From Komarekiella atlantica HA4396-MV6 (lineage in GTDB: Bacteria; Cyanobacteriota; Cyanobacteriia; Cyanobacteriales; Nostocaceae), in assembly GCA_019359395.1 (NCBI GenBank), contig JAHHHK010000007.1:186001-250000 (forward strand): DNA of 64,000 nucleotides, read 5' to 3'. This document shows positions 16,309 to 57,756 of this stretch, piece by piece. Below the pieces are notes generated by a model. The model did no database searches. It was not told where the DNA came from and worked only from the letters and a program-made list of their open reading frames with translations. Position numbers and translations under genes: made by a program. Position 1 is the first letter of the stretch; each line of letters opens with the position of its first letter.

Positions 16309-16736
16309 CTACACTTTTTTGATATTGTTCTCTAACTTAGTACAAGTTTGGCGATCAAGCCGCATGTTATAAATAATACCAATTTTGCTATCATCAACTA
16401 CGACTAAGTTATCTAGTTCAATCCCGTCATGAACCCAATGAGATAGCTGTGGGTTTGACGTCAAATCGTCCAAAAAGCCTAAATAGCCAAGGATTTTTCT
16501 TGATTTCCTGTGGCTTCTACCAGTAATTAATGGCTAACCAAGTATTACTCTCATAGTTGATTTAGCCATGCCACCTTTTGACTGTTCCAACTCAGTTTAT
16601 CTACGATTTTTCTATCTTTAACTAGATAGTTGCGTGGAGTCGGTAAATAAAAGTTCTGTTTATCTGAAATTACCTCATCTAAATTCCCCCAAAATGGCGC
16701 TGCTAACATCAAATCCCGGATGTCTGCGTTTTTTAG
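16309..16736 (-). pseudogene. probable frameshifted gene remnant
   Basis: Two minus-strand open stretches follow each other in different frames. The first, 16551-16736, encodes DLMLAAPFWGNLDEVI ... VAWLNQL. The second, 16309-16533, encodes LGYLGFLDDLTSNPQLSHW ... LENNIKKV. Both have protein-like composition and neither has a good start. The simplest reading is one gene broken by at least one frameshift and truncated at its 5' side. The family is not recognised, and it may instead be two unrelated scraps. Confidence 0.4.
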
Positions 16737-16793
16737 TTATAGCAATACCCAAGCACATGAAATACACCCCACCCGCGCTGTCGCGCATCCTCC

Positions 16794-17198
16794 CCTTAGC
16801 AAGGCTACGGTGTACACACAAATCGGAAAAACCTCATCACCAAAGATTTGCAGTATTGCAATAACGGCGATGCCTACAGCTGGCTACGCTTACGCATTTG
16901 CTATTTCGGCGATCGCATTTGCTATTTCGGAGAACGCATTTGCTATTTCGGCGAACTCATTTGCTATTTCGGCGAACTCATTTGCTATTTCGGCGAACTC
17001 ATTTGCTATTTCGGCGAACTCATTTGCTATTTCGGAGAACGCATTTGCTATTTTGGAGAACTCATTTGCTATTTTGGAGAACTCATTTGCTATTTTGGAG
17101 AACTCATTTGCTATTTCGGCGATCGCATTTGCTATTTCGGCGATGCCTATGGCTGGCTACGCCTACGCATTTGTGTGTACACCGTAGACTTAGCAAGG
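16794..17198. repeat. 21-bp tandem array inside direct and inverted repeats
   Basis: Twelve head-to-tail 21-bp units of the form KCATTTGCTATTTYGGMGAWS lie at 16894-17145. They are flanked by a direct repeat of about 33 bp (16868-16900 and 17141-17172; GATGCCTA...GCTGGCTACGC). Outside that are inverted repeats (16794-16823 and 17169-17198) whose inner 19 bp, ATTTGTGTGTACACCGTAG, match perfectly. Because 21 is divisible by three, all three forward frames stay open across the array (for example a FAISANS heptapeptide repeat). No frame has a normal start or protein-like flanks, so I do not call a gene. Confidence 0.9.
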
Positions 17199-27099: not shown

Positions 27100-27160
27100 T
27101 TAGACTTGTCTTGAGAATGGGGACTGGGGATTGGGGAAGAATAAATATTATCTCCTGCCT

Positions 27161-27238
27161 CTTGACCCTTGTACAGACGCGATTAATCGCGTCTCTACTC
27201 TTGACCCTTGTACAGACGCGATTAATCGCGTCTCTACT
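27161..27238. repeat. two perfect 39-bp tandem copies between hetI and hetN
   Basis: Positions 27161-27199 and 27200-27238 are identical. Each contains the perfect palindrome AGACGCGATTAATCGCGTCT, so each copy can form a hairpin. Sitting between convergent hetI and hetN, it may terminate both transcripts. Confidence 0.9.
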
Positions 27239-27242
27239 CTTG

Positions 27243-46065: not shown

Positions 46066-49000
46066 TTAACTTGCGATGAGGGTGACTCGTCCTTGGGAAC
46101 CGTAAGCAACTTCGCTGATATAAAGATTGGGATCGTGAAGTTCAGCAATGATGTGTTGTGCTGATTGTTGAGGATCTATGGCTGGATTTAGGTCGATCAC
46201 CCGCGCAAATACTTTTGGCCATTCCCATCTGAGGGTTTTGGTTAATCCGAATAAACCAGCGCCAACTGCACCAAAGTTGACGCTATGCTCTAAGCCAAAG
46301 GCTCCGTCGAGATGTGCTACTGTGCAGAAACAACTACGTCCGTGATGTGCTGCTTGGTTTAGGGATGGTTTGAGATGTTTCGCCATCAAAAATACGTGTT
46401 TGACGATCGCCTTTTCTTGTTCGAGATAAGAGATGCTTCCGGTGTCTGCTGTAAATACAGGATGTAGGTGGATAAAAGCCCCAATCACTCCGCAGTGAGA
46501 TGCGATCGCCTGCAATTGTTGTTGAAGATGTTCTTCACTCAAGTTTGCTAGGGTGACGCGAGTCACGCCTGCGGGTAAAGGTGATTGTTGGGGAATCAGC
46601 GATTGGGGAAAATTCACAACTACTACCTTCCAGCCTTGCTCAATTAGCGACTCAGCTAATTTAGAGGTGGTAAGGGAACCATCATCGGTGATTAAGCCGA
46701 CGTGTCCCTCTGGTAAACTGAAATCTAAATAATCTGGTGGCGCTAAGGGTTTGAGTTTGGCTGGACGGCGGGGGATATTGTGAACTATTTGAGGTGGCTG
46801 CTGCTCAAACTCAGACTCAGACTTTTTTTTTTCACCTCCAACCAACTGCTGGAGATAATCGACTATTTGACCGATGGTGCGTAGTTCCCCCAAATCTTCC
46901 ATGTTTGGCTTGGGTAGATTGGGGTACATTTCTTGCATCGCCCCCAAGATTTCCACTCGTTTGATGGAGTCAATCCCCAAGTCGGCTTCCATGTCCATTT
47001 CCAACTCCAGCATTTCTACTGGATAACCAGTTTTATCACTGGTGATGGTTAACAGAGTTTGACCTAAGTCTGCGAATTCATTACTTACTGCTGGTTCCGG
47101 TTCTGCTGTGAATTCAACAACTACGCTTGGTTCAGGTGAAGTGACTACCTCAGCCACAGGCGCAGTCACCTCTGGAGTCTCGGTTGCGTGTTGTACTTCG
47201 TGAATGGCGATTTCTACAGAAACACTTCTAGAAGCATGGGATTGCAGATACTCTACAACTTGGCCGATGGTGCGTAGTTCTCCCAAATCTTCCATATTTG
47301 GTTTGGGTAAGTCAGGATACATCTCCTGTAGCGCCCCTAGGATTTCCACTCGTTTGATGGAGTCAATCCCTAAGTCGGCTTCCATATCCATATCCATTTC
47401 CAGCATCTCTACTGGGTAGCCCGTTTTGTCGCTGGTGATAGCTAACAGGTTTTTATCCAAGTCAACAACATCAATGGTTGCACTTGGTGCTGGTTCTGGA
47501 CTAAATGCAACAACTTCGTTGACTGCTAGCTCAACATGGGGTTCTGCGATGGGGACAGATACTTCTACTACAGGCTCTACTGCGGGGATGGGTGTCTCAA
47601 CTATCGGCTCAACTACCTTGGAAATGGCGGAGAGAGGTGCTTGGGTAAAAGTTACGCCATTTTTAGCTACAGGCGCGATCGCAGGTAAAGGCTGGCTTTC
47701 TACAATCTTGGTAGTTGGGGATACAGGTGCGTCTGTAACGGTTGTTTCGGTGGTGAAAGGTACAAAATGATGGCGTTCGCTTACCCCGTTGCTGAGCGTC
47801 TCTTGCGGTTGAGCGGACACCACAGATTGAGTTGTTCCCTCACCAGAAAGTAGCTGAGAATACTCTAGTTGGATGAGTTGGAAAAAGTTTTTGGTATGTT
47901 CTACCTGCTCTTGAAGATATTGTTCATGGATGCGTAGAGTTTCACCTTGTTGAGAGTGAAATTGCATCATGCTACGCTCTAAGCTTTCCATAACAACTTG
48001 CTTCAGCTTGGCAGTTTCTATTGAAGGTTTACTATTACTCAACAAAGAATTTTGCTGTTGCATCAGTTGGAAAAACGTTTTGGCGTATTCCATTTGATGG
48101 TTGAGATAAGTTCCGTGAACTTGTAAATTCTCCGCTTGATTTTGCTGGAACTGTGTCAGCAGGTATTCTAAGCTTTCTAAAAGCTGTTGATAATTTGCAA
48201 GTTTTTCTGGTGTTGGTTGCATCTTCCCTCCGGGATGCTGGGCGTAAGACTCCTGGGCTGTTTGATATGCAATTACAGGATTCATCTGTTGCTCTGGTTG
48301 AGTAGCAATACTAGTGGGGGACTTAATCACACTGCTCACTAATGGGGTTGTAACAGGGGATGTTTTTTTATGCCCATTACTCCCAGGAGAGTGCTGAGTA
48401 TTAACTGTTAACTGTTGACTGTTAACTGTTGACTGTTGACTGTTTACTGTTAACTCTTGACTGTTTACTGTTAACGTCGCTTTGTGCCCATTCTGCAAAG
48501 CTAAAGCAAAGGCATTTTTCGTTTTTTCGGATCTATGGTTGATGCCGTTTAAACGTACATTTAACGCCTTCTTGTTCTCAACTGGCGGTAGTGTTTGGGG
48601 AAGGTGGTAAGGATCGAGGTTATTCAAAGCCAAACCAATTACGCGCAACTGCACAACCGCTTCTCGCAAAGAGCGATCGCTATTCTTTTGAGCGCTGGGG
48701 TTCAGAGATACGGTAAGATGTGGGCGATCGCCGAGGGTATCTTTTACCAAGTTAGTCAGAATTCTCCTGGGGCCAAATTCCACAAAGCAATAACCACCAG
48801 CCGCATAGATATTTTCAATCTCCTGCTTAAACAGCACCGAGTTTGAGAGGTGGGTTTCCAGGATTTTTTGAATAGTTTGCGGTTCTTTGGGATACTGCTT
48901 ACTGGTGACGTTGCTGTAAACAGGGATTTGAGGATTTTGGAAGGTGACAGCTTTAGTAGCGATCGCAAAGGATTTTTGAGCAAAGGCGATTAACGGTGTA

Positions 49001-54931: not shown

Positions 54932-56110
54932 ATGAATTTTAAGATTCCTTTGGCATGGCTACAGCTAGCTCAACAAAAAGTGCGTTTTGTAGTAGCTGTA
55001 GCGGGTATTGCTTTTATTGTCCTGTTAATGTTTGTGCAACTTGGTTTCCAAGATGCTCTTTATTCTAGCGCTACCGCAGTACATCAAAATCTGCGAGGAG
55101 ATTTATTTTTAGTCAGTTCGCAATATAAATCTTTGACCTCAAATCAAAGCTTTTCACGAACTCGTTTGTACCAAGCTCTGGGGTTTGATGGTGTAGAGTC
55201 AGTTAGCCCCATGTATTTACAGTTTGCAAAATTAAAAAATCCGGCAACTGGAGAGAAATATTCAATTTATGTGATTGGTTTCGACCCAGGAAACCCTGTG
55301 ATGAATATTCCAGAGGTTGATCGAAATTTAGATAAACTAAAAATTCCCGATGTCATGCTTTTTGACCGGGATTCGCGTACAGAGTTTGGGCCAATTGCTG
55401 AGCAATTTAATGTGGGAGATTCTAAGCAGACAATTGAAATATTTCCCTTTAATTCATTAATTGGCTATAGGGTGAGAGTTGGTGGCTTGTTTAGCTTAGG
55501 CCCTTCCTTTGGAGTAGATGGTAATTTAATTGTCAGTGACTCTACTTTCCTAAGAATAAATCCAAATAGCCGCCCGGCAGAAATGATCGATGTTGGTGTG
55601 ATCGCCCTGAAACCTGGTGCTGATCCAGAAAAAGTGCTAAAAAATTTGCAAGCCAGTTTACCTAATGACATCCAAGTTTTTACTCGTCAAGGCTTCATTG
55701 ATTTTGAGAAAAAATATTGGTCTGTCAGAACACCTATCGGTTTTATTCTTAACTTGATGCTGACAATGGCTGCTGTGGTTGGTGTGGTTATTGTCTATCA
55801 AATTCTTTACAGCAATATTGCTACACAGTTCATTGCTTACGCTACCTTGAAAGCAATAGGTTATGCAAATAATTATTTACTGAATGTGGTTTTTCAACAA
55901 GCTTTAATCTTGGCGATTTTAAGTTATATCCCAGGCTTTCTTGCTTCAGTAGCTTTATATGATTTTGCCATGAAAGCCACTAAATTGCCAATAATCATGA
56001 CTGTTAATAATGCAATAATTGTTCTCACATCAACAATTCTTATGTGCATAACTTCTGGAGCGCTGGCGATTAATAAACTCCGTTCCGCAGATCCAGGAGA
56101 TATTTTCTAG
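54932..56110 (+). CDS. hgdC: HGL exporter permease (DevC type)
   Basis: The protein is 392 aa with four membrane spans: one N-terminal (VRFVVAVAGIAFIVLLMFVQ), then a large periplasmic MacB-core-like domain (about 45-260), and three C-terminal spans (LNLMLTMAAVVGVVIVYQIL and on). This is the FtsX/MacB-type permease found with DevB. No ATPase gene follows; the next gene is the epimerase-like hgdA. The ATPase must be supplied from elsewhere, for example by a DevA-type protein. Confidence 0.88.
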   Translation: MNFKIPLAWLQLAQQKVRFVVAVAGIAFIVLLMFVQLGFQDALYSSATAVHQNLRGDLFLVSSQYKSLTSNQSFSRTRLYQALGFDGVESVSPMYLQFAKLKNPATGEKYSIYVIGFDPGNPVMNIPEVDRNLDKLKIPDVMLFDRDSRTEFGPIAEQFNVGDSKQTIEIFPFNSLIGYRVRVGGLFSLGPSFGVDGNLIVSDSTFLRINPNSRPAEMIDVGVIALKPGADPEKVLKNLQASLPNDIQVFTRQGFIDFEKKYWSVRTPIGFILNLMLTMAAVVGVVIVYQILYSNIATQFIAYATLKAIGYANNYLLNVVFQQALILAILSYIPGFLASVALYDFAMKATKLPIIMTVNNAIIVLTSTILMCITSGALAINKLRSADPGDIF

Positions 56111-57247: not shown

Positions 57248-57756
57248 TGAGATGAGTTAGTAGTTAGCGCTTAAGCGCTAACTATGAACAATGTAGCATC
57301 AAAGTAACTTTACCAAAATTTATTTTACTAGACCAAAAATGAGCATTTTATTAACAGTTATCAGTCAAGATAATTGGGTTTAAGAGCACCCCCTTAGTGG
57401 TTCCTCATTTTCAACTGAAAACTAATAACAGCCGATTAGTGGCAAGCACTATCTGGCGGGTTTAAATTCCTTATATCGTTTCCTAGTCGCTAAGGTGCAA
57501 ATTTATCAGTATTTATCAGTGTTTACACTGAAGTTTAGATGCCCTCGGCTGGCTGCGCCAACGGCGGAAGCCGCCGCACCCTGCGGGTTCGCGTAGCGTT
57601 CCGTAGGAAAGCAAGCTACCAACTTCTCTCTGTGGTTAATTACTTCTTGTTGTACTTCACTCAAGTGAGAACCGCTATAGTATACCCCTTGATAACTGTT
57701 TACTGTTTACTGTTCACTGTTCACTGATTTATAGATTTTCCAAAACATTGTTTATC
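57248..57756. repeat. repeat-rich spacer before the first glycosyltransferase
   Basis: A 24-bp perfect palindrome lies at 57261-57284 (core TTAGCGCTTAAGCGCTAA). Nostoc repeat modules lie around 57543-57605 (GCCGCCGCACCCTGCGG, TTCGCGTAGCG). Five TNACTGT-type heptamers lie at 57693-57727. No gene is seen. Confidence 0.65.

Follow-up and report, generated by a model that had tools for sequence, protein, structure and literature searches.

An in-frame heptamer array in the HglE linker of Komarekiella atlantica occupies a protein slot that holds other dispersed repeats in related cyanobacteria

The hglE-type polyketide synthase gene of Komarekiella atlantica HA4396-MV6 contains, in frame, a tandem array of the heptamer TNACTGT. 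We consider it highly probable that this array is a heptamer repeat of the short tandemly repeated repetitive (STRR) type that a disordered HglE linker has captured, and that this linker is among three or more protein slots which, in the Nostocaceae compared here, are filled by unrelated dispersed repeats, depending on the species. The gene lies in a 64,000-nucleotide stretch of the genome, hereafter the window (contig JAHHHK010000007.1, positions 186,001 to 250,000). The most likely explanation is that repeat DNA is captured where disorder makes a protein tolerant and is filtered there for open, hydrophilic frames. The strongest evidence is that identical DNA elements at one slot are translated in one frame in some species and in another frame elsewhere, which argues that the DNA rather than the peptide recurs. 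Moreover, because the slot takes unrelated repeat families, capture and replacement are indicated, and not merely local expansion. Judged from the sequences, the HglE linker appears to be rebuilt by genome repeats and not kept as a peptide, and a loop of an M16 peptidase and a UvrD-like helicase show a similar turnover.

The synthase, which we take to be HglE (also the name used in the earlier note), gave Pfam matches to ketoacyl-synt, to Acyl_transf_1 and, in two stretches, to PP-binding. The array begins at residue 1007, after the acyltransferase match (627–951) and before the best PP-binding match (1478–1547), which agrees with the AT–ACP linker position that the earlier note had assigned to it. 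The ten TNACTGT units that the note had placed at 48402–48471 are present back to back: TAACTGT, TAACTGT, TGACTGT, TAACTGT, TGACTGT, TGACTGT, TTACTGT, TAACTCT, TGACTGT and TTACTGT, one of them deviating by TCT in place of TGT. On the minus strand they encode TVNSQEL-TVNSQQS-TVNSQQL-TVN, that is, three full heptapeptides and a final TVN, so that a previous count of about four was right. A ACTCAGCACT-type seed adjoins the array; such a seed also flanks a 42-mer repeat in two relatives, in HglE of Nostoc sp. B(2019) and in the helicase of Nostoc sp. MG11. An AlphaFold2 model of a 301-residue fragment (19 sequences) had pLDDT below 50 over residues 72–163, with the array at about 78–102 within this run; beyond the run come two long helices, where pLDDT is mostly above 80. 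The model supports a disordered array segment; because the mean pLDDT of the fragment is 55, this disorder is supported and not proven. The features in the window are listed in Table 1.

Table 1. Positions of the synthase gene, its repeat slot and related repeats in the window
Feature	Position	Strand	Basis
39-mer tandem copies containing palindrome CAGACGCGATTAATCGCGTCTCT, the family that fills the slot of aff. Roholtiella LEGE 12411	27159..27242	+	Tandem Repeats Finder, repeat search
hglE-type PKS gene, KS-AT-linker-helices-ACP-ACP, 1808 aa	46066..51492	-	ORF and translation, Pfam
Repeat slot: variable HglE linker segment, GHKATL to SNGHKKT; four dispersed repeat families across five congeners	48382..48475	-	Linker alignment, repeat searches; predicted disordered
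ACTCAGCACTC (peptide TQHS), adjoining the hglE array	48389..48399	-	Sequence; heptamer-type seed
TNACTGT heptamer array (coding strand ACAGTNA), aa 1007-1031, TVNSQ(E/Q)(L/S)	48401..48475	-	Sequence, Tandem Repeats Finder
Intergenic TNACTGT array (units TTACTGT, TCACTGT), lying upstream of a gene for a family 2 glycosyltransferase	57693..57731	+	Sequence, Tandem Repeats Finder, Pfam

Of 60 genomes searched, the 30 with the best scores each contributed one locus, and the HglE linkers of these loci were compared by alignment; three of the loci (L022, L023 and L027, with ORFs near 2300 aa) are probably paralogues. Five congeners are referred to by label: the source genome (G000), Komarekiella delphini-convector SJRDD-AB1 (G001), aff. 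Roholtiella LEGE 12411 (G002), Nostoc sp. B(2019) (G003) and Nostoc sp. MG11 (G004). The array was found in two of the 30 loci, those of G000 and G001. It is missing in G002–G004 and in the 25 other loci, and those 28 linkers hold at most two ACAGTNA words; the relatives therefore do not share the constant array that the earlier note had held would speak for a selected peptide. In G002 the slot contains CAGACGCGATTAATCGCGTCTCT, the palindrome, in a copy that deviates at a single base; in G003 it contains an exact copy of the 42-mer and in G004 an exact copy of a 30-mer. Insertion of the 30-mer at a HIP1 site, as described for SDR5, was considered and is not claimed: in its place several Nostoc linkers have GCGATCGA, but others, such as L167, have GCAGTTAGAG. 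Each of these sequences belongs to a family: the palindrome gave 48 strand-hits in G002 (at most two mismatches; one site may count twice, once per strand), the 42-mer 13 hits and the 30-mer 41 hits (at most three mismatches each). All four slot families, TNACTGT included, are in frame across the five congeners. At the search thresholds used, they were found in the five HglE genes in the slot alone, and among the 30 loci there was one extra hit, in G010, elsewhere in the protein; this absence elsewhere is partly a matter of ascertainment, because the families were recognised from slot sequences. A repeat present in one HglE orthologue and missing, with the frame intact, in close relatives is the pattern by which in-frame capture is recognised, and it was found here.

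The arrays of G000 and G001 are of equal length. Over residues 1007–1031 they differ by four silent and three amino-acid codons, and the two codons past residue 1031 add one more silent and one more amino-acid change; the full linkers measure 152 and 149 aa, with the 3-aa difference lying outside the array. It had been proposed that such arrays grow by 21 bases without a frameshift and so vary in length between strains. A 21-base step was indeed observed at the M16 peptidase slot, where the segment comprises 58 aa in G000 and 65 aa in G001. For hglE, length variation is not shown, because the two carriers found are different species with the same array length.

A further sample comprised 80 named HglE loci, of which 70 were parsed (the linker pattern was unmatched in ten). 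The array occurred solely in L158, which is the gene of G001 itself, and one of the 66 parsed loci outside the four congeners carries any of the four families (L216, Westiellopsis, the palindrome). Among loci L159–L198, nearly all of them named Nostoc or Desmonostoc (37 of 40 parsed), none of the four families was found and the top period-7 score was 12. A period-7 score of 16 was reached by five of the 70 loci, G001 included, and by 0.6% of random windows. From these comparisons, most HglE linkers do not appear to show repeat capture. Repeat-like linker stretches were also seen in Dendronalium (L209, EDTGTWGRGD), Cylindrospermum (L215, KIQNSKFKIQN), Westiellopsis (L216, the palindrome copy) and Fischerella (L223, EDTGTFGRGD).

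A linker search also retrieved an M16 peptidase with an in-frame TNACTGT array. In G000 the loop spans residues 269–302, within the Peptidase_M16_C match; in other species it holds other heptamers, the palindrome or the 42-mer. At this slot L247, L269 and L274 read the 42-mer as RAKRPATANS or something close to it, and L263 reads it in another frame, as HGLNAPLPLT. Likewise, the palindrome is read as TRLIAS in L094 and L098 and, in another frame, as DAINRF in L102. A period-7 score of at least 16 of 21 was reached at the slot by 13 loci in a set of 30 from different genomes and by 25 in a set of 30 from the genus Nostoc (26 of 31 once G000 is added). The sets hold the top-scoring 30 loci out of 60 and 53 genomes, respectively. 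No random window drawn from these genes, with up to 200 windows for each, reached this score. The M16 slot of G004 (L095) carries some 50 inserted residues in frame (LRGASAVVRQSGLL...TTGGTPARQ), and this insertion looks like another dispersed repeat.

In the UvrD-like helicase of G000, one loop (slot 1) contains the palindrome and another (slot 2) contains seven TNACTGT units. At slot 1, G004 has the 42-mer, and G002 and G003 have neither the palindrome nor the 42-mer, so that in-frame presence and absence are again found side by side. Slot 2 of G001 contains a shorter STVNSQ run. In this G001 helicase (L238, L241) the flanks of slot 1 lie in different frames, one in an ORF of 401 aa and the other in an ORF of 492 aa. 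Either a break in the gene at slot 1 or an assembly error may account for this, and because of the two frames the gene was left uncounted.

The hglE array is beyond chance: three perfect TNACTGT units, our measure of abundance, gave 229 hits in the genome of G000. Corresponding counts were 392 in G001, 1 in G002, 2 in G003 and 3 in G004, so that among the five congeners the heptamer is abundant only in the two that carry it in the HglE slot. A reversed control pattern gave 20 hits in G000 and 13–26 in the other four, and is probably itself a repeat, because these counts exceed chance for 18 fixed bases. G010 has 330 TNACTGT hits, yet its HglE slot is without the array; abundance is therefore insufficient for an array to be present. 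Statements about the whole genome rest on the first 100 listed places and on 34 stretches of DNA (33 from G000 and one from G004). The 59 arrays sampled from these places are dispersed and mostly intergenic, one lying within a credible gene and three within short repeat-made ORFs. Identical heptamers had also been claimed for the intergenic region at 57693–57727. An array is indeed located there, and TAACTGT and TTACTGT are common to both sites; however, its TCACTGT unit is absent from hglE and the TGACTGT unit of hglE is absent there.

We also compared 18-mers of hglE with 297,586 bases of G000, in stretches that partly overlap and are enriched in TNACTGT. The comparison flagged the array and, near residue 935, a single stray pair. 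Against the part of this DNA that lies outside the window, three of the 36 listed window ORFs had matches: hglE, a tandem-repeat ORF at 16720 and the ORF at 54932–56110 (two positions). The second of these (16720–17187, 155 aa) consists for the most part of 11.9 tandem copies of a 21-base unit, with edges that encode MPTAGYAYA and MPMAGYAYA; the edges resemble the 30-mer family of the G004 HglE slot, and the ORF is possibly not a real gene.

Since seven divided by three leaves one, the units of a coding array are read in three successive phases, in which the degenerate base falls in GTN (always valine), NAA (a stop when N is T) or TNA (a stop with either A or G). In hglE this base is A, A, T and T in the first phase, C, C and C in the second, and T, C and T in the third, choices that leave the array without a stop. 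When the ten degenerate bases of hglE were shuffled, the frame stayed open in approximately 10% of cases, and for this reason an open frame taken by itself is weak evidence. All three degenerate-base changes between G000 and G001 sit in the silent GTN phase. The ACAGTNA orientation is used by all five of the coding arrays that were compared, two each from G000 and G001 (in hglE and in the M16 gene) and one from the G000 helicase. It yields a hydrophilic peptide (TVNSQQS, mean Kyte–Doolittle value of −1.23), whereas the opposite orientation yields a hydrophobic one (LLFTVYC, 2.16) and, given the sampled units, meets fewer stops. A common T(A/T)ACTGT-TTACTGT core occurs in 48 of the 59 sampled arrays, many of which also have common flanks. 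We used no P value from a χ2 test of unit composition or from simulated openness, because both treat the units as independent, which the common core and flanks contradict.

These observations are consistent with a sequence of events in which the heptamer repeat would have entered the HglE linker in an ancestor that G000 and G001 share. The length of the array would then change by slippage, three heptamers per step, and small elements may insert into heptamer seeds, a movement that was not itself observed. Selection would purge only the outcomes with stops, frameshifts or hydrophobic peptides, and no function is ascribed to the peptide. A bolder version, which we offer tentatively and would sooner doubt than accept, is that the slots are lasting landing sites: a heptamer seed in a disordered loop would keep attracting unrelated small mobile repeats, linkers would be rewritten continually and a family in a burst would tend to fill the slots of its genome.

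Growth in place was weighed against capture. In that case a chance ACAGTNA word would have expanded by 21-base steps, independently of any genome-wide family. In its favour, Tandem Repeats Finder scored the hglE array higher at a period of 21 (3.6 copies, 92% match, score of 122) than at a period of 7 (10.7 copies, score of 101), and the M16 slot shows a 21-base difference. However, among the congeners the array is confined to genomes with a roughly 100-fold higher count of the heptamer, the same heptamer occurs in the M16 and helicase genes of G000, and sister species carry a different sequence at the slot. These findings make slippage alone an unlikely origin. Still less probable, in our estimate by a wide measure, is a selected peptide in which the TVNSQ heptads set the length or flexibility of the linker, or serve to dock a partner, within the glycolipid synthase. 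Its frame is open and the degenerate base obeys the phase in both carriers; nevertheless, 28 of the 30 loci lack the array, the congeners have copies of other repeat families in its stead, three of the seven differing array codons alter the amino acid, and similar peptides occur in the M16 peptidase and the helicase.

We give almost no credence to a DNA or RNA regulatory element that came to lie in the gene by accident. In its favour, the sampled arrays of G000 are non-randomly placed at gene ends, with every contact within 20 bases oriented into the gene; yet this orientation was not seen in 29 arrays of nine other genomes, the hglE array lies mid-gene, and other repeat families occupy its place in relatives. 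Capture of dispersed repeat DNA in a tolerant linker thus remains the reading that we prefer.

Several known systems resemble the one described here. STRR sequences, short tandemly repeated repetitive heptamers of heterocystous cyanobacteria, were reportedly described by Mazel in 1990, and CAACAGT, presumably one of the units in that work, is a rotation of ACAGTCA. Like STRR sequences, which are degenerate seven-base tandem units, dispersed and mostly intergenic, TNACTGT is a tandem seven-base unit with many dispersed, mostly intergenic copies; unlike them, the present array forms part of the coding frame of a long enzyme, at a slot common to unrelated families. The small dispersed repeats (SDR) of Nostoc are said to have been reported by Elhai in 2008, often embedded in tandem heptamers. 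The 42-mer is similar in being a very short dispersed element that adjoins ACTCAGC heptamers (it is flanked by heptamers of this type in G003 HglE and the G004 helicase), a likeness by description; the insertions here differ in being in frame in proteins and in varying between sister species at one slot. Rickettsia palindromic elements (by repute from Ogata, 2000 and 2002) lie in frame in unrelated protein genes. Dispersed repeat DNA in frame in unrelated genes is common to both cases, a likeness in mode of life for which no homology is claimed. Those elements are about 150 bp in length according to PMC10969869, whereas the words here are of 7–42 bases, include tandem heptamers and belong to several families that alternate at one slot.

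Three tandem heptanucleotides are mentioned for Calothrix PCC 7601 in PMC4692102, and SDR5 inserts into HIP1 according to PMC4390886. Direct repeats of another heptamer, TAACTGA, also occur in cyanobacteria, some of them within ORFs in a stop-free orientation (MacGregor 2015, PMC4679880), and that paper suggests that they are tolerated between modules or at the ends of proteins. They resemble the present arrays as heptamer direct repeats that lie partly in ORFs. However, the ORF cases in that paper are mostly short function-unassigned proteins or protein ends, with the exception of an RNA polymerase β′-like ORF, and the section on them describes no replacement by other families in orthologues. 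Our literature search on repeats and hglE, of incomplete coverage, found no description of in-frame heptamer repeats in HglE or of families alternating at one protein slot. In-frame capture of repeats is already known; turnover between families at an orthologous slot looks like a new form of it. Slots with different families in sister species provide with-and-without pairs for studying these elements, and one DNA element in two frames at one slot separates a DNA-driven origin from selection of a peptide. For work on polyketide synthases, the results counsel caution, in that part of the HglE AT–ACP linker is replaceable with little sequence conservation.

The arrangement of the arrays at gene ends was also recorded, for 58 arrays (C2–C30; the helicase array, C17, was left out). 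TNACTGT points into the gene in all 24 array–gene contacts within 20 bases in G000, 19 of them at 3′ ends and five at 5′ ends. As a general rule this orientation was rejected: 29 arrays from nine other genomes gave eight contacts into genes and seven away. A similar two-sided arrangement at genes is noted for GGGGAYT repeats in PMC4692102. In five of the 24 contacts in G000, the array itself forms the stop codon.
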